From positions 1 through 20,389 of the forward strand of contig NZ_JAJBQV010000034.1 of the NCBI RefSeq assembly GCF_020539865.1: a stretch of DNA of 20,389 bases, read 5' to 3'. Source of the DNA: Megasphaera elsdenii. Lineage in GTDB: Bacteria; Bacillota; Negativicutes; Veillonellales; Megasphaeraceae. The first letter of the stretch is position 1, and the number at the start of each line of letters is the position of its first letter. Shown one piece after another: positions 10,643-19,436 of this stretch. Below the pieces are notes generated by a model. That model saw only the letters and a program-made list of their open reading frames with translations, had not been told where the DNA came from and did no database searches. Made by a program: the position numbers and the translations under genes.

Positions 10643-11758
10643 GTGAATCAAGAAACAATGTATGCAGCTGCGCTCCAATCCCTAAAAGGCTGTGGCAGTT
10701 CCCGCTTGGAGGCCCTCATCGACGTATGCCGCTCGCCACGGCAGGCTTGGGAAGCCGTCTGGGATGAGGACTTGCGGCGCCGGACCGGTATTCCGCCGCG
10801 CCTCTTTTCCCAACTCAGATAAGAACGAAATGTTTTTGACTGGGATACTTTTCAGCATAGACTGGACTTTTACGGCGTCCGTCCCGTCGCCTTGTGGGAC
10901 AACGAGTATCCGGCGTGGCTGCCGTTCATTGCCAGACCGCCGATAGTCCTTTTTTGCCAGGGCACGATGGGAAAAGATAGCAGCAGTATCGCCATCGTCG
11001 GATCCCGCCGGGCCAGCCCGTATGGCTTGAATGCCGCCGAGACTGTGGCAGCTGAACTGGCAGCCCAAGGGTTTACGATTATCAGCGGCGGTGCCAGAGG
11101 TATCGATACGCGGGCGCATCGGGGCGCCTTGAAAGGGAAGGGGCGGACTATCGTCGTCGTCGCGAATGGCCTGGACCGGACTTATCCCAGGGAGAACAAG
11201 GCCCTCTTTCGGCAGGTCGTCGATAACGGCGGTGCTGTTCTTTCTGAATATACCTTTGGCGTCGAGCCCTTGTCCCAGAATTTCCCTGCCCGGAACCGCA
11301 TCATTGCCGGCATGGCTGCGGCGACGATTGTCGTCGAAGCGGCCATGCGTAGCGGGTCCCTCATTACGGCTGACTTAGCCCTCGATGAAGGACGCGACGT
11401 CTTTGCCATGCCGGGCAGCGTCTTTTCGGAGACCAGCCGCGGGACGAATCACCTCTTGCAGCTCGGCGCCATTCCCTTGACCTGTACGGACGATGTCGTC
11501 CGGGAATTCCGCCGCCGCGGCTGGCAGGGACCGGAAACCGTCTCTGAGGCGGCGGCACCCAGCCTCAGTCCGGCTGAACAGGCCGTCATCGACGCCATCC
11601 CCTTTGACCGGGCCGTGCCGGTGAGCGAGCTTTTGGAAAAGACGGGCCTTTCTGTTTCAGAACTGCTGCCCCTGCTATTGACCTTGCAGATGAAAAAAGC
11701 CGCCGAGGAATTGCCTGGCGGCTATATCCGCTGTGCTGCGGCCTTTTCTGTTTTATAA
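10643..11758 (+). pseudogene. dprA: DNA-processing protein DprA, split by an in-frame TAA
   Basis: DprA loads RecA onto incoming single-stranded DNA during transformation. The frame opens with GTG at 10643 behind a perfect AAGGAGG and reads 59 residues of the N-terminal helix-hairpin part (ending PPRLFSQLR) to TAA at 10820-10822. The same frame continues without shift as ERNVFDWDTFQHRLDFYG and YP..L..I..PP. The full Rossmann domain follows (AIVGSRRASPYG, ISGGARGIDTRAH, NFPARNRIIAG, MRSGSLITADLA, VFAMPGSV), then a winged-helix C-terminus, to TAA at 11756-11758. Without that codon the protein would be 371 residues, normal for DprA. The nonsense codon could be a real inactivation, a read-through or reinitiation case (TTG at 10892, ATG at 10967, neither with a good ribosome site), or a base-call error. 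Confidence 0.85.
11693..11722 (-). terminator. Terminator of the minus-strand kinase gene, inside dprA
   Basis: On the minus strand GCCGCC (11722-11717) pairs with GGCGGC (11704-11699), helped by an inner AGG/CCT, and is followed by TTTTTT (11698-11693). It lies about 31 nt beyond the stop of the minus-strand gene and is embedded in the last codons of dprA. Confidence 0.75.
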
Positions 11759-12472
11759 GCCGATCACATAGGTTTTTGCCTTGTCGACGGATACGATGTC
11801 GATCCAGCCGAAAGGAACCAAGGCATGGCAACAGGCGAAGAGGGCATGATGGTCGGCGATGAATTCTTTTAAGGCAGTGAGGGTCTGTTTACTGCCTTCG
11901 ACACTGTAGTAGCCGGCGACAGCGGCATCGATGAGGTCATTGTCCGGCCATTCTTCACGGAAACAGCTGTGCAGGAAGAGAAACAGGTCCAACACCGGTG
12001 CCGGTGCGTTGACGAATTTCTTTTCGTTTTCCCAGTCGAGGAAGGTGATGGTCTTCGATGAGGTATCGTAGGCGATGTCCCGCAAAGCCGGCCGGCCATG
12101 GTGCAGGCCGGCGGCGTGGAGCTGTGCCAGGCCTTGGCCGGCTTTTTCAAAGGCATCGCGGCGGACATCGGCGTATTCTGCTTCCTTGGCGACGCCTTGC
12201 AAGGTCTTGCCGGCTCCTTCCATGACGAAGAAGTCTTCATCGAGGAGGACAATTTTGGGTGCTAACGGCAGGCGGGCATTGACGGTCATGATTTTATAAG
12301 CTTCACACCAGAATGCCGTGGACGGATCCTTCTTGGCAAAGGTGTTTCGCCCGTTGCTCATGCGGCGTTTGACAAAATACGTTTTATTTTTAAAAGAAAA
12401 TGATACAATCCGTTTATCTGGTTTTTCGGCGAGGAGCGATTGAACGAATTTTAAGAATATGCCGTCGAACAA
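11753..12472 (-). CDS. WaaP/InaA-like kinase-fold protein
   Basis: The 239-residue product has a shortened protein-kinase-like fold. A Lys in YFVKRR (about residue 35) and a Glu in FWCEAYK (about 57) could form the usual ion pair. AQLHAAGLHHGRPALRDI (catalytic-loop-like, Asp near 132) precedes TITFLDWEN (DFG-equivalent DWE, Asp near 146). This pattern resembles lipopolysaccharide-core kinases (WaaP, InaA) and Bud32-type kinases more than aminoglycoside kinases. An LPS-modifying role would suit a diderm Negativicute but is inference. The TTG at 12472 is chosen because AAAGGAG lies 8 nt upstream. A TTG at 12511 would add 13 residues. It is a single gene convergent with dprA, sharing the palindromic stop TTATAA. 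Confidence 0.7.
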   Translation of the reverse strand: MFDGIFLKFVQSLLAEKPDKRIVSFSFKNKTYFVKRRMSNGRNTFAKKDPSTAFWCEAYKIMTVNARLPLAPKIVLLDEDFFVMEGAGKTLQGVAKEAEYADVRRDAFEKAGQGLAQLHAAGLHHGRPALRDIAYDTSSKTITFLDWENEKKFVNAPAPVLDLFLFLHSCFREEWPDNDLIDAAVAGYYSVEGSKQTLTALKEFIADHHALFACCHALVPFGWIDIVSVDKAKTYVIGL

Positions 12473-12545
12473 GAAAGCCACTCCTTTCAAAATATTAAGA
12501 TATAATTTCAAAATTTACAAGATATACATATTAGGGTATTTATAT

Positions 12546-12574
12546 ATTATAACAAAATCTATCAGTAAAATAAA
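12546..12574 (-). promoter_or_regulatory. Promoter of the kinase-like gene
   Basis: On the minus strand TATAAT (12551-12546) is preceded by TGT, giving an extended -10 (TGTTATAAT). A weak -35 (TTTATT, 12574-12569) lies 17 bp upstream. It points toward the gene starting at 12472, and the surrounding 230-bp divergent region is very AT-rich. Confidence 0.5.
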
Positions 12575-12670
12575 TGGTTCTTTTTCAAGAAATAAGGCTA
12601 TTTATTGCGAAAATGCATCGAAATAGATTGTTCTGCAAACAAAATGTTATGTTGAATTTGATAAGCACTA

Positions 12671-12699
12671 TTGACATGTGAAAGGAGATACTTTATAAT
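12671..12699 (+). promoter_or_regulatory. Consensus promoter of the metal-ATPase locus
   Basis: A perfect TTGACA (12671-12676) and a perfect TATAAT (12694-12699) are separated by 17 bp. This is a strong sigma-A-type promoter for the gene at 12746. The context CTATTGACAT also occurs at the feo promoter (16322-16331). Confidence 0.85.
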
Positions 12700-12706
12700 A
12701 ATAGAC

Positions 12707-12725
12707 GTAAATGAATATCAATATT
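12707..12725 (+). promoter_or_regulatory. Possible Fur box
   Basis: The 19 bases starting GTAAATGAATATC match the classical Fur box GATAATGATAATCATTATC at 13 of 19 positions by my alignment. The site begins 8 bp after the -10, where a bound repressor would block the start. The feo operon has a better match in the same relative place. AT-rich DNA makes chance matches likely. Confidence 0.4.
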
Positions 12726-12745
12726 TTTAAAGGGAGATGTGTCGT

Positions 12746-12964
12746 ATGTTTCAGAATACAGATTTTTGGATTGGTTTAGGTATCGGTGTCGTTGCCGGCG
12801 TTTTCGGTTATAAATTGATGTCCGAACGGGAACAGCAGCTCTTGGCTATGCAGCAGCCCGCTGCCGGCGCCATGACCGCTTCGGTACCCTTGGCTGAATT
12901 GCAGCGTCAGAAAGAAGAATTAGAAGACATGATTGCAGCCCAGGAAGCCGCTCAGGCCAAATAA
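12746..12964 (+). CDS. 72-residue membrane-anchored protein, FezA-like candidate
   Basis: The product begins MFQNTDFWIGLGIGVVAGVFGYKL, one glycine-rich membrane helix at about residues 8-25. A soluble Gln/Ala/Glu-rich tail follows, likely helical (LAELQRQKEELEDMIAAQEAAQAK). AGGGAG at 12731-12736 supports the ATG at 12746. An in-frame ATG at 12737 overlaps that site. I cannot name the family from sequence. Its place directly ahead of HMA-like proteins and a P1B-type ATPase recalls the small hydrophobic FezA of ferrosome clusters. It has the strong promoter to itself, with a terminator right behind it, so it may be made in excess over the downstream proteins. Confidence 0.75.
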   Translation: MFQNTDFWIGLGIGVVAGVFGYKLMSEREQQLLAMQQPAAGAMTASVPLAELQRQKEELEDMIAAQEAAQAK

Positions 12965-12996
12965 TCTAATTTTTTCAACTTCAAACTCAAAAAAAA

Positions 12997-13028
12997 GAGG
13001 CTGTTTTAGTGGGACAGCCTCTTTTTTT
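12997..13028 (+). terminator. Terminator between the 72-residue gene and the HMA genes
   Basis: GAGGCTGT (12997-13004) pairs with ACAGCCTC (13014-13021) around a 9-nt loop and is followed by seven T. It lies inside an apparent operon, only 31 nt before the next start, which leaves little room for another promoter. Partial read-through is the simplest way to express the genes behind it. Confidence 0.85.
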
Positions 13029-13058
13029 GAGAGGAAAACGCCAGGAAGGACTGCTTGT

Positions 13059-13343
13059 ATGCTCATTCCAACATCGAAATGGGACCTTATCATGAGAACC
13101 GTCTCCATTTCGTCTTACTTGCCAGGCCGTATCCGCCTGCACAGTAAAAAACTCATTGGCAATGCCGAATTGGGCCGCAAGGTCTATGCATATATTGCCA
13201 GTTATAAAGAAATCGATGAAGTCGATATCAATGTCCTCACCGGTTCCGTATTGATCATCTACCGGCCGCAGGTCCTGCGGACCAACAGGGAACTCGTCCG
13301 CGTAGAGAATTATATTATGCACCATGCTGAAAGGAGAAGGTAA
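13059..13343 (+). CDS. Small HMA-like protein without CxxC
   Basis: The 94-residue product contains SISSYLPGRIRLHSKKLIGN, then ASYKEIDEVDINVLTGSVLIIYRP and a helical end. This is the ferredoxin-like beta-alpha-beta pattern of the HMA_2 type found beside certain P1B-like ATPases. The metal-binding GMxCxxC of ordinary HMA domains is absent, and the protein has no cysteine at all. The ATG at 13059 follows GGAAGGA (13043-13049). An internal ATG at 13092 would still keep the domain. It stands 2 nt before the next HMA-like gene. A FezC-like role in ferrosome formation is a hypothesis. Confidence 0.8.
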   Translation: MLIPTSKWDLIMRTVSISSYLPGRIRLHSKKLIGNAELGRKVYAYIASYKEIDEVDINVLTGSVLIIYRPQVLRTNRELVRVENYIMHHAERRR

Positions 13344-13345
13344 TT

Positions 13346-13996
13346 ATGTCTTATGCCTCAGGTTTTATGGTGGGCACGTCGATTGGTAAAGCCGTATACG
13401 ACTTGTTCCACAATAAGAAGGGCAAAGCGGCTGCCGCAGCTGCGCCCGCCGGCCCAATCCGGTCTCAGGCCCGGGCGGCAAAACCGGCAGCTGATGTACC
13501 CCGGTTTGCCTGCGTTTCCGTCTTGAAGGGACGCCGCCGCTATCGTGCGGCTGCCCTCGTCGGCAATCAGGAACTGGCTGAATTGATCGAAGAAAAAATC
13601 AGCACCTTGCCAGATGTCCAGTTCATCCAGGTCAGCGCTGTCACGGGCAGTATCTTGATTTTCGCTCATAGCGAAGGGACCCTGGACCGGCTGGAAAACT
13701 TCTTCCGTTTCCGTCTCTTCCCGAATGCTGTCGAAGGCATTGTCAGTGCTGTCTGCGACGCAGAACGGGAAGAAGCGAAGAAAAAGGAAGAAACGACCTA
13801 TCTCAAAGCGGTCCGCGATACGGGCACTTTTTTTAGCCGCATCATCCGCAATGAATCGAGTCGTTTTTTTGACTTGCGCACCGTTGCTGCGTTGCTCTTG
13901 ACGCTCCGCGGCCTGCGCAAAGTCGTATTTATGGGACAGCGTCCGTCGGGACCGCAGATGTTGTGGTGGGCTCTGTCCTTGCTGAGGGGGCATTAA
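13346..13996 (+). CDS. 216-residue HMA-like protein with a C-terminal hydrophobic segment
   Basis: The protein starts MSYASGFMVGTSIGKAVYDL, a glycine-containing amphipathic or membrane-associated segment. An Ala/Pro-rich linker (about 27-50) leads to an HMA_2-like domain (about 53-125) containing RYRAAALVGNQELAELI and VSAVTGSILIFAHSEG. A charged helix and a C-terminal hydrophobic part follow (DLRTVAALLLTLRGLRKVVF, then SGPQMLWWALSLL), probably membrane-associated. No metal-binding CxxC is present. AAAGGAGAAGG precedes the ATG. It lies 2 nt after the smaller HMA gene and 2 nt before the ATPase, so the three are almost certainly co-translated. I know of no defined function. A partner or scaffold role for the ATPase is inferred. 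Confidence 0.8.
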   Translation: MSYASGFMVGTSIGKAVYDLFHNKKGKAAAAAAPAGPIRSQARAAKPAADVPRFACVSVLKGRRRYRAAALVGNQELAELIEEKISTLPDVQFIQVSAVTGSILIFAHSEGTLDRLENFFRFRLFPNAVEGIVSAVCDAEREEAKKKEETTYLKAVRDTGTFFSRIIRNESSRFFDLRTVAALLLTLRGLRKVVFMGQRPSGPQMLWWALSLLRGH

Positions 13997-13998
13997 CC

Positions 13999-16092
13999 AT
14001 GTATATGCGCAATACCATCTTCTTGCACAGTGAAATCCCCAGCCGTATGCGTCCTGTCCTGAGCGTCAAACTCCGCCAGGCCCGCGGCATCGTTTCGGCT
14101 GTCGTAGAAGAAAAGAAGGTCACTGTCTATTATAGGGGACAGCTGGACTTGCGGGCACTCAATCTCTTTGTCCGCGCTTTTGAAGAAAAATATGGCCGCA
14201 AGAAAGAAGCTAAGAACGACGACATGGATGTTGCCACCTATCGTCGGGAAGCGATCATTTCCGTCGGCGGCTTCATTGCCATGAATATCCTGCGTAAAGT
14301 TAATCCGGAATTCTACGGGTCGATTCTCTTGTTTCGCCGATTATTTACCTTATATATTGCACGCCGTTACATTAAGAACGGTATCATGGGACTCGTAAAA
14401 GACCATCAGGCCAATGCCGATACCTTGACGGCAACGGCTGTGGCTGCGTCTGTCCTGGCAGGTAAGCCTGAATCGAGCCTGACGCTCCTGGCTCTTTCCA
14501 ACGGCGCTGAAATGATGACGGAATACGCTGCTGAAAAAGCACGCCATCAGATTTCGGGCCTCCTCAAGCTGGACCAGCGCGACGTATGGCTCGTCGAAAA
14601 CGGCCGGGAACGCAAAGTCCCTGTGGAATCGCTGAAGCGGGGCGACCTCATTGCCGTCCATTTGGGCGAAAAAATCTGCGTCGATGGCAGCGTCGTCAGC
14701 GGCAATGCGGCTGTCAACCAGGCATCCATTACGGGCGAATCGAATCCAGCCATTAAGCAGGAAAACTCGCCGGTTTATGCAGGCAGCGTCATCGAAGCCG
14801 GTGATCTGGTCATTCGCGTCGAAAAAGTCGGCGCGGACACCTCTTTGGCCCAGATCATCCACCTCGTCGAAGAAGCACAGACCCGGCGGGCACCGGTCCA
14901 GAACTTTGCTGATAAAATGGCCAATCTCTTGGTGCCCATTTCCTTCATTGGCGCAGCCATCGTCTACGGAGCGACGAAAGATTGGCAGCGCGTCCTCAAT
15001 CTCTTATTCATCGATTTCTCGTGCGGCTTGAAATTGTCGACAGCGACGGCGATTTCCGCGGCCATCGGCGTAGCCGCCCGCAAAGGGATCCTCATCAAAG
15101 GTGGCAACTACATCGAAAACCTGGCCGACATCGACACGGTCGTCCTCGATAAGACCGGGACCATTACCATGGGCGTTCCGCAGATCGACCATATCGAAAC
15201 GGTCGAAGGCGTCGATGATAAGGAAATGATCCTCCTCGCCGCTTCGGCAGAAATGCACTCTGTCCATCCGCTGGCTGTAGCCGTCCAGAAATACGTCAAC
15301 GCCCAGGGCTGGCAGACGCCGCCGCATGATTCGTCGGAAACCGTCGTCGCCCGCGGTATGAAAGCGACGGTGCCGGATTTTGAAGGCTATGAAGGCGGGG
15401 AGGTCCTCGTCGGCAGCCGCCGCTTCATGAATGAAGAAGGTGTCGAAGGAATGCCGGCAACGGATAACAAGACCTGGGGCAAGAACCTCTTGTACATCGC
15501 CCGCAATGGGGAATACATGGGCTTCCTGGTCATTCAGGACCCCGTTCGTCCGGGCATGAAGAAGACCTTGAACCGCATGCGCCGGCTGGGCATCGACGAA
15601 GTCGTCATGCTTACAGGCGATTCGAAAGCAGTGGCTGCCGAAGTCGCCCGTGACATGGATATCGACTCGTACCATGCCGAAATCCTGCCGGAAGACAAGG
15701 CAAATTACGTCATGAAGATGCAGAAACGGGGCAACGTCATGATGGTCGGCGACGGCATCAATGACGCACCGGCCCTGGCTTTTGCCGATATCGGCGTCAG
15801 CCTCGGCGGCAACAAGACGGATATTGCCGCTGAATCGGCGGCCATTACGATCCGCTCGGAAGACCCGTCGAAACTGTACGATGCCTTGTACATCGGCCGG
15901 GAAACGATGCGGGCCATCAATCAGAACTTCACGGCTACCATTGTGGTCAACTCGGCAGCCATGCTCCTCGGTGCCTTAGGGAAGATCAGCCCCCTCTGGG
16001 CTGCTGTCATCCACAACACAGCTACCTTGGCCGTCGTCCTGAACAGCGTCCGTATCCTGAAACCGGCGCGGACCGTCCGCCGTTCCGCGTAG
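13999..16092 (+). CDS. P1B-like metal-transporting ATPase, FezB-like candidate
   Basis: This 697-residue protein is a P-type ATPase. It has an HMA-like N-terminal domain without CxxC (residues 1-70), actuator motif TGES (245-248), phosphorylation site DKTGT (D384), the P1B HP motif (SVHPLAVAV, H423-P424) and GDGINDAPALA near 584. A closing membrane pair ends it (FTATIVVNSAAMLLGALGKI and on). The intramembrane CPC of copper and zinc pumps is replaced by F-S-C (FIDFSCGLKLSTATA, 338-350), so only one cysteine remains and the transported metal cannot be read from known codes. This, with HMA_2-type neighbours, fits the P1B6 group that includes FezB of ferrosomes. The ATG at 13999 follows GAGGGGG. 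Iron is the favoured substrate by context. Other metals are possible. Confidence 0.9.
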   Translation: MYMRNTIFLHSEIPSRMRPVLSVKLRQARGIVSAVVEEKKVTVYYRGQLDLRALNLFVRAFEEKYGRKKEAKNDDMDVATYRREAIISVGGFIAMNILRKVNPEFYGSILLFRRLFTLYIARRYIKNGIMGLVKDHQANADTLTATAVAASVLAGKPESSLTLLALSNGAEMMTEYAAEKARHQISGLLKLDQRDVWLVENGRERKVPVESLKRGDLIAVHLGEKICVDGSVVSGNAAVNQASITGESNPAIKQENSPVYAGSVIEAGDLVIRVEKVGADTSLAQIIHLVEEAQTRRAPVQNFADKMANLLVPISFIGAAIVYGATKDWQRVLNLLFIDFSCGLKLSTATAISAAIGVAARKGILIKGGNYIENLADIDTVVLDKTGTITMGVPQIDHIETVEGVDDKEMILLAASAEMHSVHPLAVAVQKYVNAQGWQTPPHDSSETVVARGMKATVPDFEGYEGGEVLVGSRRFMNEEGVEGMPATDNKTWGKNLLYIARNGEYMGFLVIQDPVRPGMKKTLNRMRRLGIDEVVMLTGDSKAVAAEVARDMDIDSYHAEILPEDKANYVMKMQKRGNVMMVGDGINDAPALAFADIGVSLGGNKTDIAAESAAITIRSEDPSKLYDALYIGRETMRAINQNFTATIVVNSAAMLLGALGKISPLWAAVIHNTATLAVVLNSVRILKPARTVRRSA

Positions 16093-16093
16093 C

Positions 16094-16200
16094 AGGGCTA
16101 GCACACGCCAATGGTTTGTAGGGGCCCACACGTGCCAATAATCTGTAGGAGCTCGCACATGCCAATGATTTATATGAGCCCGCACGTGGCGAGCCCGTCA
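16094..16200. repeat. Four degenerate 27-bp tandem repeats
   Basis: Units begin at 16094 (26 bp), 16120, 16147 and 16174 (27 bp each). The shared frame is AGGRGCYCRCACRTGCCAAT followed by RATTTRT. The fourth unit diverges after GCACGTG and ends GGCGAGCCCGTC. Units two to four contain CACRTG cores that are nearly palindromic. A related single copy lies at 8114-8140. There are no unique spacers, so it is not CRISPR. The repeat begins 2 nt after the ATPase stop. Confidence 0.75.
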
Positions 16201-16257
16201 GGTATATGTACGATGTCTGTGAACTGATTTGCGTGAACGACCTACAAGCAACGTAAC

Positions 16258-16292
16258 AAGAGGCTGTCCTTAATCCGACAGCCTCTTTTTTT
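16258..16292 (+). terminator. Terminator after the P1B ATPase
   Basis: AGAGGCTGTC (16259-16268) pairs with GACAGCCTCT (16277-16286) around an 8-nt loop and is followed by a T run and a second T-rich stretch. It separates the metal-ATPase locus from the feo promoter. The stem core is shared with the terminators at 179 and 12997. Confidence 0.92.
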
Positions 16293-16311
16293 CTTTTTTT
16301 ACAAATGAATT

Positions 16312-16328
16312 TCAATAGCAACTATTGA
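16312..16328 (+). promoter_or_regulatory. Perfect inverted repeat over the feo -35 box
   Basis: TCAATAG, the 3-nt spacer CAA and CTATTGA form a perfect 7-bp inverted repeat. Its right arm overlaps the TTGACA at 16325-16330. The position suits an operator for a dimeric regulator. Which regulator is unknown. Confidence 0.5.
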
Positions 16329-16353
16329 CATAGTATGTGAAAAAATATATAAT
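16325..16353 (+). promoter_or_regulatory. Consensus promoter of the feo operon
   Basis: TTGACA (16325-16330) and TATAAT (16348-16353) are both perfect and 17 bp apart. Transcription should start near 16360, inside the Fur box, and yields a leader of about 75 nt before the first gene. Confidence 0.88.
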
Positions 16354-16359
16354 GTTTTT

Positions 16360-16378
16360 GGTAATGAAATGTATTATC
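16360..16378 (+). promoter_or_regulatory. Fur box of the feo operon
   Basis: GGTAATGAAATGTATTATC matches GATAATGATAATCATTATC at 14 of 19 positions, including both outer hexamer halves almost completely. It covers the expected transcription start, a normal place for Fur repression under iron sufficiency, and precedes genes that are classic Fur targets. Confidence 0.65.
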
Positions 16379-16436
16379 ATAAACGGAAGGGATGTGTGAG
16401 TATTATTTACGGAGCTAATTGAAAGGAGCGATGTAA

Positions 16437-16727
16437 ATGAGTGTCGTCATCGTAGGTGGAAATGATTGTATGGTATGTCGCTATAAGCGTATTTGCAAAG
16501 AGTACGATTATAAGGCAAAAGTGTTTACACAGGTACCTAGCGATTTCAAATCGAAAATCGGATCGCCAGACCTGGTCGTGTTATTTACCAGCACCGTGAG
16601 CCACAGTATGGTCCGCTGTGCCATTAAGGAAGCGCAGCGCAAGAACGTCGAAGTCGTCCGTTCCCATACGAGCAGCTCGAACGCGCTGAAAAACATATTA
16701 GCCTCCCGGACGGAAGAAGCCGTCTGA
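16437..16727 (+). CDS. DUF2325 protein with clustered cysteines
   Basis: The 96-residue product fits the DUF2325 family: VVIVGGN at the start, PDLVVLFTSTVSHSMV in the middle (with the family's conserved Ser-His), and a final SHTSSSNALKNIL. Near the N-terminus it has DCMVCRYKRIC, a CxxC with a third Cys five residues on, which could bind iron or a cluster. AAAGGAG precedes the ATG at 16437. It is the first gene of the feo transcript, 22 nt before feoA. The family's biochemical role is not known to me. A part in iron sensing or Feo assembly, like the Cys-containing FeoC of other bacteria, is inference from position. Confidence 0.8.
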   Translation: MSVVIVGGNDCMVCRYKRICKEYDYKAKVFTQVPSDFKSKIGSPDLVVLFTSTVSHSMVRCAIKEAQRKNVEVVRSHTSSSNALKNILASRTEEAV

Positions 16728-16749
16728 AGGTAAAAAAGGGGAGTTAGTC

Positions 16750-16986
16750 ATGAAAATTGTTTCATTAGCCGACATGAAAGTCGGCCAGTCGGGCGTCGTC
16801 GAAACCCTGAAGGGACGAGGAAATATCCAGCACCGTCTCGTCGACATGGGCGTCGTCAAGGGCTCGCACATTTCTGTCTTCAAAAAGGCCCCGCTTGGAG
16901 ACCCTATTGAAGTAAAAGTCAAAGGGTGCGCACTGGCATTACGCATGAATGAAGCAGCGATGATTTCTGTCGCTGTTGAATCATAA
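16750..16986 (+). CDS. feoA: Ferrous iron transport protein FeoA
   Basis: FeoA is a small cytoplasmic SH3-like protein that supports FeoB. The 78-residue product shows the family pattern: SLADMKVGQSGVVETLKG, then HRLVDMGVVKGSHISVFKKA, PLGDPIEVKVKGCALALRMNEA and MISV. GGGGAG lies ahead of the ATG. It starts 22 nt after the DUF2325 gene and ends 17 nt before feoB, within the Fur-controlled unit. Length is normal. Confidence 0.95.
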   Translation: MKIVSLADMKVGQSGVVETLKGRGNIQHRLVDMGVVKGSHISVFKKAPLGDPIEVKVKGCALALRMNEAAMISVAVES

Positions 16987-17003
16987 AGGGGGTTATAGTA
17001 GTC

Positions 17004-19436
17004 ATGGAAAATGCAGCAAAAATCAAGATTGCCCTGGCCGGCAATCCGAACTGCGGTAAAACGACGATTTTTAACAATATTACCGGCGCAAAACAGCACG
17101 TCGGCAACTATCCTGGCGTTACTGTCGAAAAGAAAGAAGGCCATCGTACCTTCAACGGCAAAGATTTGCTCTTCGTCGACCTGCCTGGCACATACAGCCT
17201 GACGGCACGGTCCCTGGACGAAGTCGTCGCCCGTAACGTCATTATCAATGAAAAACCGGATATCATCGTCAACGTCCTCGATGCGTCCAACTTGGAACGT
17301 AACTTGTACTTGGCAGCACAGCTCGTCGAACTGGGCCGGCCTATGGTCATCGCTTTGAACATGATGGACATTGCAGACCGCATGGGCATCAAAATCGACT
17401 TGAAGAAACTAGGGAAGCAGCTCGGTGCCGTTGTCGTGCCCCTCGTCGGCAGCAAGAACATCGGTACGAAAGAATTGCTCGATGCCATTTCCGGTACGCA
17501 GACGCAGAACCTGGTCAATGCTAAAGTCGATTACGGTCCGGACGTCGAACCGGCCATTGCCAATTTGACAGACGCCATCGAAAAAATGGGCATCATCAAG
17601 TATCCGGTCCGCTGGCTGGCTGTCAAGCTCTTGGAAAATGACTCCGACGCTATTGCGAAAGTCCGCGCTATGGAAGGGACTAATTCCATCCTGGCCCTGG
17701 CTTCGACGCTGCGTGATTCCTTGGCTAACAAGATTGATTTGGACTTCTATTTCGCTCAATGTCGATATCAGTTCGCAACGGATGCATTTAATAAATCGAT
17801 TATCAATGTCGGTTCGAGCGACTCCTTGTCCGATAAGATCGACAGTGTCTTGACTCATCGCTATTTAGGGATTCCTATTTTCCTGGCCCTCATGTGGCTC
17901 ATGTTCGTCGTCGTCATCAACGTTGGCGCTTACCCGCAGGGATGGCTCGATACGGGCTTTTCCATGCTCGGCGACTGGTGCAGTGATGTCATCGAAGATG
18001 ACCAGCTCCGGTCCCTCGTCGTCGACGGCGTCATCGGCGGTGTCGGTTCCGTTCTTTCTTTCGTTCCCCTTATTGTTCTCTTGTATTTATTCATCAGCCT
18101 TCTCGAAGATACGGGGTATATGGCCCGTGCTGCTTTCCTTATCGACCGCGCTATGCGCGCCTTGGGGTTGCACGGCAAGTCCTTTATCCCGATGATCCTC
18201 GGCTTTGGTTGCAACGTACCGGGTATCATGGCTGCTCGTACCTTGGACAATGAAAAAGACCGTCTGGTTACGATCTTAGCTTGCCCGTTCATGAGCTGCG
18301 GTGCCCGCCTGCCGGTATATACCTTGCTCATTGCCGCCTTCTTCGGTGCTTCCGGTCACGGTGGTACGGTCCTCTTCGGGGTCTACCTCTTAGGCATCAT
18401 CATTTCTGTTTGCGTCGCCTTGGTCCTCCGTCATACGACGTTCAAAGGGGAACAGGAACCGTTCGTCATGGAAATGCCGCCGTACCATATTCCGACCTTG
18501 AAAGGCGTACTCATGCACATGTGGGAACGCACGGTCTTGTACCTCAAGAAAGCTGGTACGTTCATCCTCGGCGCATCTATCCTCGTCTGGTTCCTCACGG
18601 CATATCCGATGGATGTCGACTACTCTCAGGACTTCGATGCGGCAAAAGATCAGGTCACTGCTGAAATGGAACAGAAACAGGCTGACATCCTCCAGTCTTA
18701 TGGCCTCAGCGCTATCGAAGACAACGATGAATTGAATACGATGTATGAATCCATGGTTGCCGCTGCCGATGAAGCTGCTGACGAAGAAGATGAAGACGAA
18801 GCCGATACGGGCAACGCCTTGAACCCGGCTGCTGCTTTGAGCTCCGTTGAAGACCAGGTCAAAAATTCCGAAGAAGAAGACAACCTGTTCATGGGCAAAT
18901 ACCCACAGAGCTTCGCCGATCTCCAGGAACAGAATCCGGCCGTCTTCGCTCAGGCTCTGCCTCTCTTCGATGCCAAAGCCGATGCAGACGACGAATCGTC
19001 TAAACTCGATGACCAGCAGACTGCTGAAAAATTGCAGCAGTCCTATGCAGCCCGTCTTGGTAAATTTGTAGAACCGGTCATTGCACCGCTTGGCTTTGAC
19101 TGGAAAATTGGCGTAGGCCTTATCGCCTGCACAGCAGCTAAAGAAGTCATGGTCTCCACGTTGGGTACCATTTACAGTGTTGGCGGTGACGATACACACG
19201 AATCGGGCATCGTCGCTTACCTCCGAGATGACCCGGACTTCAACCAGGCCGTTGCTCTCTCGCTCATGGTATTCACCTTGCTCTACATGCCTTGCGTAGC
19301 TGCTATGGCTGTTATCAAACGTGAAACTGGCTCGTGGAAAATGCTTCTCGCCTGCGACGCTATGTGCCTCGTCCTCTCGTATGTCTTAGCTTTCATCACG
19401 TATCACCTGGCTCTCATGGCCGGTCTCGGTGCGTAA
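17004..19436 (+). CDS. feoB: Ferrous iron transporter FeoB
   Basis: FeoB imports Fe2+ across the inner membrane, driven by its N-terminal GTPase. The 810-residue protein has G1 GNPNCGKT (13-20), the G2-region HVGNYPGVTVE, G3 DLPG (58-61) and G4 NMMD (118-121). A helical stalk follows, then the membrane part with GFGCNVPGIMAARTL, LACPFMSCGARLPVY and LYMPCVAAMAVI, typical gate and core motifs. Between about 536 and 678 it carries a long, acidic, helix-prone insert (for example ADEEDEDEAD) before SYAARLGKFVEPVIAPLGFDWK. This is larger than the loop I expect there and explains the size above the usual 650-770 residues. AAAGGGGG precedes the ATG. Confidence 0.97.
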   Translation: MENAAKIKIALAGNPNCGKTTIFNNITGAKQHVGNYPGVTVEKKEGHRTFNGKDLLFVDLPGTYSLTARSLDEVVARNVIINEKPDIIVNVLDASNLERNLYLAAQLVELGRPMVIALNMMDIADRMGIKIDLKKLGKQLGAVVVPLVGSKNIGTKELLDAISGTQTQNLVNAKVDYGPDVEPAIANLTDAIEKMGIIKYPVRWLAVKLLENDSDAIAKVRAMEGTNSILALASTLRDSLANKIDLDFYFAQCRYQFATDAFNKSIINVGSSDSLSDKIDSVLTHRYLGIPIFLALMWLMFVVVINVGAYPQGWLDTGFSMLGDWCSDVIEDDQLRSLVVDGVIGGVGSVLSFVPLIVLLYLFISLLEDTGYMARAAFLIDRAMRALGLHGKSFIPMILGFGCNVPGIMAARTLDNEKDRLVTILACPFMSCGARLPVYTLLIAAFFGASGHGGTVLFGVYLLGIIISVCVALVLRHTTFKGEQEPFVMEMPPYHIPTLKGVLMHMWERTVLYLKKAGTFILGASILVWFLTAYPMDVDYSQDFDAAKDQVTAEMEQKQADILQSYGLSAIEDNDELNTMYESMVAAADEAADEEDEDEADTGNALNPAAALSSVEDQVKNSEEEDNLFMGKYPQSFADLQEQNPAVFAQALPLFDAKADADDESSKLDDQQTAEKLQQSYAARLGKFVEPVIAPLGFDWKIGVGLIACTAAKEVMVSTLGTIYSVGGDDTHESGIVAYLRDDPDFNQAVALSLMVFTLLYMPCVAAMAVIKRETGSWKMLLACDAMCLVLSYVLAFITYHLALMAGLGA

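Follow-up and report, generated by a model that had tools for sequence, protein, structure and literature searches.

A four-gene cassette of HMA2 proteins and a P1B6-like ATPase beside the feo operon of Megasphaera elsdenii, and its possible relation to ferrosome gene clusters

Organization of the locus

The element under study is a cassette of four genes, at positions 12746-16092 of a 20,389-nucleotide (nt) stretch of Megasphaera elsdenii DNA (contig NZ_JAJBQV010000034.1), referred to here as the window. An initial annotation had proposed that this locus is a candidate ferrosome (fez) cluster, making membrane-bound iron stores. All four open reading frames (ORFs) claimed in that annotation are present, on the forward strand. 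The first (12746-12964) encodes a small one-helix protein of 72 amino acids (aa), which gave no Pfam match above cut-off. It is followed by the gene for HMA2a (13062-13343; 93 aa, a single HMA2 domain; PF19991, E value 7.8e-12), that for HMA2b (13346-13996; 216 aa, with an N-terminal helix, the HMA2 domain and C-terminal helices; PF19991, 3.1e-24) and that for a P-type ATPase of 697 aa (13999-16092), identified as P1B6-like from family models, a tree and motifs. The last three genes are indeed separated by gaps of 2 nt, with the HMA2a stop codon ending at 13343 and the HMA2b ATG at 13346, and the HMA2b stop codon ending at 13996 and the ATPase ATG at 13999.

The adjacency to feo was also borne out. 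Downstream of the cassette, and separated from it by a DUF2325 gene (16437-16727; PF10087, 1.6e-32), are feoA (16750-16986; PF04023, 1.3e-20) and feoB (17004-19436; TIGR00437, 645.6 bits against a cut-off of 315.65), all on the forward strand. The gene order is thus dprA, a minus-strand gene, the four-gene cassette and DUF2325-feoAB. The window ATPase is 97% identical to that of the Megasphaera sp. NM10 locus (L073) and 92% identical to other named Megasphaera sp. proteins.

Distribution of the cassette

The clade containing the window ATPase is denoted W, and that containing the Clostridioides difficile FezB-type pump is denoted F. The W set comprised 84 loci: the best 80 of 387 relatives in named genomes (L007-L086), three plasmid loci and the window. 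These 80 loci are partly motif-selected, because they were found using two short patterns from the region of the fourth transmembrane helix (TM4). Sixty loci, including the window, were untruncated. It is apparent that the small gene was present in all 60 (upstream in 11, downstream in 49), at least two upstream HMA2 genes in 57, and a third HMA-like gene in 36; the exceptions, L036, L045 and L059, have one upstream HMA2 gene. This count makes two HMA2 genes the rule of the class, rather than the variant layout supposed in the initial annotation. The cassettes of Priestia megaterium plasmid pBM400 (L001) and Fusobacterium (L002) belong to the W clade and have the same gene set as the window, but in the order HMA2-HMA2-ATPase-HMA2-small, i.e. 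with a third HMA-like gene after the ATPase and the small gene last.

W loci were found in at least five phyla (Bacillota, Fusobacteriota, Bacteroidota, Thermodesulfobacteriota and Pseudomonadota), and the Melioribacteraceae locus L046 presumably represents a sixth. Since 57 of the untruncated loci hold the small gene along with two or more HMA2 genes upstream, a chance neighbourhood of unrelated genes is so improbable that it can be considered refuted as regards the four genes together; the link to feo is only frequent. The four genes are real, and the cassette constitutes a widespread class.

The HMA2 proteins

Both small HMA-like proteins match the HMA_2 family PF19991 above its cut-off (45.8 and 86.1 bits, respectively, against 30), and, as the initial annotation had noted, neither contains CxxC. 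That motif was absent from all 204 HMA2-like ORFs, a set drawn from the window and related loci that includes partial frames, and from all 77 ATPase N-termini, which makes a metal site of the CopZ kind unlikely. Conserved in the HMA2 domains are (P)GR-x-R and TGS. The AlphaFold2 model of HMA2a (mean pLDDT 89) has the topology beta-beta-alpha-beta-beta-alpha. That of HMA2b has the same core, with block means of 85-93 at residues 51-120 and 35-73 elsewhere, the N- and C-terminal helices being poorly modelled. Fold searches with the HMA2 models returned no confident single match. The literature found on PF19991/HMA2 proteins comprised only unrelated work, none of it joining an HMA2 domain with a P-type ATPase.

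PF19991 was also observed within other P-type ATPase frames, such as that of a Sporomusa pump whose TM4 contains GCPIAV (G005 C1:4762583-4764469, L182), and in very long P-type ATPase frames of 1045 aa (G005) and 1435 aa (G008).

Family, motifs and phylogeny of the ATPase

In Pfam, the window ATPase matches E1-E2_ATPase and Hydrolase. It scored 529.5 bits against the heavy-metal model TIGR01525 (cut-off 346.25), in agreement with its annotation as a P1B type, and it has FSC where Cu and Zn pumps have CPC. For the HMA-like N-terminus that had been ascribed to it, no Pfam HMA match was obtained at E≤10; in the ATPases of Romboutsia and Intestinibacter, the corresponding N-terminal region matches PF19991 (1.7e-13 and 2.6e-12, respectively).

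Two motifs are central to the classification. In TM4, DFSC (15013-15024, forward strand) stands in place of CPC, and HN (16012-16017, forward strand) is located in TM6, the last helix. All 42 rows of W and F combine D-x-x-C in TM4 with HN in TM6, a combination absent from the 28 other ATPases; HN alone is not exclusive, since it also occurs in both CtpC-like rows and in 3 of 17 CPC rows. The reading of D-x-x-C as a shared motif is our own. The HN criterion is taken from PMC9374683 (partial text), in which HN in TM6 identifies P1B6 pumps and CtpC, with its CPC, is termed 'P1B6-like'. The window ATPase has HN in TM6 and, in contrast to CtpC, no CPC in TM4. P1B-6 pumps are listed with Fe(II) as substrate (PMC7558416).

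The window ATPase fell short of the cut-off of the Cu model TIGR01511 (361.1 against 397) and exceeded that of the 'cadmium family' model TIGR01512 (400.6 against 313.5). The C. difficile FezB-type pump gave the same pattern (TIGR01525, 499.0; TIGR01512, 349.7; TIGR01511, 318.9), and four yardstick pumps (C. difficile CopA-like, annotated Listeria cadA, SPC and CtpC-like) passed all three models, with TIGR01511 scores of 406-632. Identity as CopA or ZntA was not indicated: there is no CPC, and the CopA and ZntA models gave 289.6 against 1316 and 303.3 against 1240, marks that weigh little because named or CopA-like Gram-positive pumps miss them too. It could be argued that the pump carries another metal (Zn, Cd, Mn, Co or Ni) and that the feo neighbourhood is incidental. 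The pass of TIGR01512 would fit that explanation but tells little, because all five other P1B pumps tried, including that of C. difficile, pass too, and the absence of a CPC or SPC site from the pump argues against it.

A phylogenetic tree was constructed with KdpB as the outgroup from 70 rows (22 W, 20 F, 17 CPC, 2 CtpC-like, 2 SPC/P1B4, 5 others and 2 KdpB). Labels were assigned by motif; L149 is annotated cadA and L005 adjoins a DUF1490 gene. W was monophyletic (support 100/100), as was F (99/100), and the two were sisters (94/96). The CtpC-like pumps formed the next branch (86/78), and the CPC and SPC pumps were placed elsewhere. An earlier unrooted tree without KdpB (63 rows) contained the same three groups. 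In the AU test, a grouping of F with CtpC was rejected (p 0.022) and one of W with CtpC was rejected narrowly (p 0.041, marginal); the tree program issued warnings of one long branch and of uneven composition. The initial annotation would have been refuted by a position among copper, zinc or P1B4 exporters; the ATPase instead groups with the FezB-type clade, and not with pumps that carry CPC (Cu, Zn/Cd) or SPC (P1B4). Plain similarity would have hidden this relationship, because in BLAST comparisons the CtpC-like pump L005 (380 bits) ranks above the C. difficile pump (330), followed by those of Azospirillum (324), CadA (315), the CopA-like pump (278) and the SPC pump (257). With good confidence, the window ATPase is predicted to be a P1B6-like pump that is sister to the FezB-type pumps.

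Comparison with known fez and effluxosome systems

Among 71 genomes of the Peptostreptococcaceae, the family of the Romboutsia genome, 14 contain a W-type ATPase at E<1e-210. Six others encode a 699-aa ATPase (L143-L148) near-identical to C. difficile proteins. In L118, the 699-aa ATPase is preceded by a one-helix protein of 131 aa (DUF6110, 1.6e-22), presumed to be the C. difficile FezA. The C. difficile fezAB genes are CD630_05910-05920 (PMC11651100, partial text), with which the 0.71 Mb position of the presumed pair in G013 agrees. Because name, order and place fit, we infer, by these rather than by an accession match, that the C. difficile locus (L117, L118) is fezAB. FezA, a membrane protein, and FezB, a transporter, are both Fur-repressed and needed for C. 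difficile ferrosomes (PMC12574912, partial text). The window resembles this system in two respects. Its P1B ATPase carries D-F-S-C in TM4 together with HN in TM6, and the one-helix partner has a helix rich in Gly as well as an E-D-hydrophobic segment (LEDMIAA in the window, VEDILAE in C. difficile). It differs in that its ATPase, at 30% identity, falls into a sister clade, in its two extra HMA2 genes, and in a small protein without a DUF6110 match.

Relatives of the C. difficile pump were found in 18 of 247 Desulfobacterota genomes at 1e-100. In five such loci feoA is nearby, and L126 combines feoA with an HMA2 gene and the gene of a small one-helix protein. The same query gave 0 of 369 at 1e-100 in a Gammaproteobacteria sample containing no positive control. 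A six-gene cluster on Azospirillum brasilense p3 (L153) is HMA2-containing, as is the window. Its products include one HMA2 protein (31.6 bits against 30), one HMA-like protein (26.8), a YtxH-annotated protein and an ATPase, and genes of an iron ATP-binding cassette transporter adjoin it, a further point of likeness. It differs from the window in that its ATPase belongs to the F clade and in two further unknown genes. The Rhodopseudomonas palustris fez operon consists of six genes (PMC12016538, partial text), and we infer from gene number and clade that the Azospirillum cluster is a fez operon. The seven genes at 12746-19436 of the window gave no match to DUF4405, the cytochrome of the FezC type that is named for D. 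magneticus but, in the available text, not for C. difficile.

The PacL-CtpC platform of mycobacteria, of which the Rhodococcus locus L005 is such a pair, is similar in that a one-helix scaffold is encoded with an HN-bearing P1B pump. It differs from the window in the CPC of TM4, DUF1490, a C-terminal metal-binding motif and zinc efflux. PacL (DUF1490) serves as a scaffold that gathers CtpC into foci in the membrane, and the DUF6110 proteins, which are encoded together with P1B6 pumps, are described as relatives of PacL (PMC9374683, partial text); they are also called similar to PacL in PMC13043812 (partial text). In the literature searched, DUF6110 was named only in the available text of these two papers, and that of the latter has no occurrence of ferrosomes or Fez.

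It is possible, though less likely than not, that the cassette is a metal efflux platform, in which the pump and a PacL-like protein form membrane patches and, with no organelle, expel the Fe(II) (or several metals) that Feo brings in. Such export would protect from over-uptake by Feo, and this explanation would accord with the CtpC-like pumps being the next branch of the tree, with the BLAST score of L005, and with the reported scaffolding of CtpC by PacL and likeness of DUF6110 to PacL. The W pumps, however, have D-x-x-C like the FezB-type pumps, unlike the CPC of the CtpC-like rows, and the small protein lacks a His-rich C-terminal motif. FezA, moreover, is reported as necessary for ferrosomes in C. 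difficile (PMC12574912, partial text). The DUF1490 partner with its C-terminal metal-binding motif and the CPC pump of the PacL-CtpC effluxosome were not found in the window: there was no PF07371 match, no His in the small-protein C-terminus and no CPC.

Probable relationship of the small protein to FezA and PacL

At 1e-4, searches with three small proteins of each type, W and F, returned sets of hits that did not overlap. When profiles were compared using hhalign, the W small proteins matched the FezA/DUF6110-type set with a probability of 82.1%, an E value of 1e-5 and a score of 36.1, as against at most 13.5 in 60 column-permuted profiles and 20.9 for the reversed profile; the F-type profile excludes one row that stems from the W locus L029. 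The Desulfobacterota subset of the F-type small proteins matched W subgroups at 68.9-87.2%. These comparisons suggest that the window small protein is probably a remote FezA/PacL-like relative.

In L029, two tandem one-helix ORFs (1218-1475 and 1475-1681) lie behind the W ATPase. One is W-like and the other was matched by an F query at 3.6e-5, making it a possible bridge.

Linkage to feo and distribution of W and F

A feoA or feoB gene was found near 16 of the 104 loci of type W, 18 of the 47 of type F and none of 30 loci of other P-type ATPases, counts that include near-copies and flanks of approximately 1.5 to 8 kb. Restricting the count to loci of about 5 kb gave feo in 6 of the 20 for W (L188-L207) and in 18 of the 41 for F (L122-L142, L208-L227). 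In genera other than Megasphaera, W stands beside feo in Sporomusa, Desulforamulus (where the ATPase is in several frames), Neobacillus and Turicibacter. The proposal that the pump carries another metal is favoured by feo being near so few W loci, but that linkage in five genera, against its absence from the control loci, argues against it, and we consider the proposal quite improbable. In the Neobacillus feo neighbourhood, an SPC pump was observed besides W.

Among 250 genomes of Negativicutes, which we take to be the class of the sampled Megasphaera genome, 80 contain W (E≤1e-150), 35 contain F (E≤1e-120) and none contains both, where 11.2 joint cases would be expected (hypergeometric 3.9e-7, shared ancestry not taken into account). 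Among 245 genomes of Clostridia, W was found in 4 and DUF6110 in 13 (9 above cut-off) with no overlap, numbers too small to inform. Four of the seven Negativicutes F loci that were read follow feoB, and feoB was found in 13 of 20; in L217, a FeoB-associated gene (PF12669) lies between feoB and the F-type genes. A pair of membrane-protein genes (approximately 131-140 and 284-292 aa) was observed after the F-type ATPase in Negativicutes loci L217, L220, L223 and L226.

Expression signals and flanking sequences

Within 12300-17000, only two sites match the sigma-70-type promoter consensus (TTGACA-17-TATAAT) at 12 of 12 positions: one before the small gene (12671-12699, forward strand) and one before DUF2325-feoAB (16325-16353). 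Between the small gene and the HMA2a-HMA2b-ATPase block is a terminator-like hairpin (12994-13028, forward strand; 14 bp and a T-run, -17.7 kcal/mol), which was missed by a consensus terminator scan that demands five T after the stem. A hairpin of -15 kcal/mol or lower followed by at least four T was present in 10 of 12 compared loci with the small gene first (absent from L066 and L068), the 12 including three near-copies and having been folded without shuffled controls. Because this hairpin sits 3′ of its gene, the small protein is perhaps overproduced, a likely effect being an excess over the pump. The terminator scan placed a terminator after the ATPase gene (16258-16287, forward strand).

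Fur boxes were scanned for before 12 fez-like and 6 feo starts, using three 7-1-7 consensus forms. At the feo starts, the scores were 11-12 of 14 (equalled by 0.7-14% of shuffles), 53-57 nt upstream in 5 of 6. The 12 fez-like sites scored 9-11 of 14, equalled by 10-93% of shuffles, and the Fur box was rejected as support for the cassette. Fur-family genes were found in 19 of the 20 genomes checked, including all 8 W genomes. In Anaeroglobus, Colibacter and M. micronuciformis (L044, L057, L061), and not in the other loci compared, an inverted repeat, TTCTCAA...TTGAGAA, overlaps the small-gene promoter and is possibly a different operator.

Several features of the flanking sequences were also recorded. 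The dprA gene (PF02481; 10643-11758) has an in-frame TAA at 10820-10822, after which the frame continues without a shift. Between dprA and the cassette, a minus-strand gene (11753-12511) encodes a 252-aa protein with weak kinase-like Pfam matches only (APH, Kdo; E 0.1). A degenerate 27-bp tandem repeat of 3.4 copies (16095-16185) lies between the ATPase gene and its terminator, and a partial version is found in the same place in Megasphaera sp. NM10. The DUF2325 gene is the first after the feo promoter and heads the Megasphaera feo operon; another is near a FezB-type cluster on an Arcobacter plasmid (L152, 2155-2487).

Interpretation

The fez-cluster reading of the initial annotation survives in part. 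Grouping of the ATPase with the FezB-type clade is consistent with it, as are a probable FezA-like protein, HMA2 partners and the feo linkage, which are seen with W and F alike; the position of the ATPase as a sister and the failure of the Fur box lend it no support. Because the ATPase falls outside the FezB clade, the cassette is called here a sister class, not a fez cluster. The explanation that we favour, at somewhat better than even chance, is that 12746-16092 belongs to a cassette class sister to fez, with a pump that would move Fe(II) out of the cytosol and a FezA/PacL-like scaffold. It is supported by the rooted tree and the AU tests, the shared D-x-x-C and HN, the TIGR01511 score below cut-off, the remote match of the small protein, the feo linkage, the listing of Fe(II) for P1B-6 pumps and the mutual exclusion of W and F in the Negativicutes sample. 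On present evidence, the cassette may work like a fez cassette.

A number of observations weigh against this explanation. One of the two selecting patterns contains ID[FY][SI]C, so that the W rows were partly picked for their TM4 motif. The W ATPases are not nested within the clade of the tested FezB (94/96 for the sister arrangement), no experimentally tested W member was found in the literature, and BLAST prefers the DUF1490-associated CtpC-like pump (37.6% identity) to that of C. difficile (30.4%). The small protein gave no DUF6110 match in the Pfam scan; the C. difficile/Negativicutes subset alone matched the W small-protein subgroups at 2.0-59.1% only; and the membrane helix carries most of the profile score (median 17.3 with the N-part permuted, 29.3 with the C-part permuted and 37.1 intact, computed while the L029 row was still in the F-type set). 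The Fur-like box that had been reported for the locus did not withstand the scan: the best match in the 130 nt 5′ of the small gene is 10 of 14, equalled by 61% of shuffles. The shortfall of joint W and F genomes in Negativicutes is calculated ignoring shared ancestry, and independent switches may be few; in the Peptostreptococcaceae (14 W and 6 F of 71, overlap 0) it is not significant (p 0.25). Finally, ferritin matches are strong in 7 of 8 W genomes (E≤1e-33) and 2.6e-6 in the eighth, so a ferrosome-like store would not be their sole iron store. Absence of ferritin as the reason for a second store was rejected, PF00210 being found in 20 of 20 genomes, weakly in several. No literature on Megasphaera iron storage with feoB was found.

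In the proposed mechanism, the likely substrate is Fe(II). It would be bound in a mixed O/N/S membrane site, formed by the Asp and Cys of D-x-x-C in TM4 and His-Asn in TM6, which would replace the sulphur-rich CPC site of the Cu/Zn pumps. The pump would move the metal from the cytosol into the lumen of a ferrosome-like compartment or across the cell membrane; direction, compartment and stoichiometry are our suppositions. The small one-helix protein may cluster and stabilize the pump, as FezA/PacL-type scaffolds do, and the HMA2 proteins, without CxxC and, in HMA2b, with extra helices, may act as docking partners of the pump or in membrane shaping.

Given a cousin-like pump and helper and their recurrence in several phyla, the cassette may represent a second form of the ferrosome system, one that evolved separately. 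More tentatively still, there might be two anciently separate ferrosome-type machineries, FezB/FezA and the HMA2-rich W, swapping beside feo in related gut bacteria, with W also on the plasmids of aerobic Priestia and the PacL/FezA scaffold shared with mycobacterial effluxosomes; storage organelle and efflux patch would then be two outcomes of one pump-plus-scaffold design. If the favoured explanation is correct, the ferrosome and effluxosome literatures would be joined through one scaffold family, and Priestia megaterium would offer a non-pathogenic, plasmid-borne model for the function of such cassettes. Ferrosome-like storage would then reach relatives of Megasphaera and Selenomonas, as well as Sporomusa, Fusobacterium, Leptotrichia, Succinivibrio, Bacteroidales and Priestia, several of which are residents of the gut or mouth that compete for iron.

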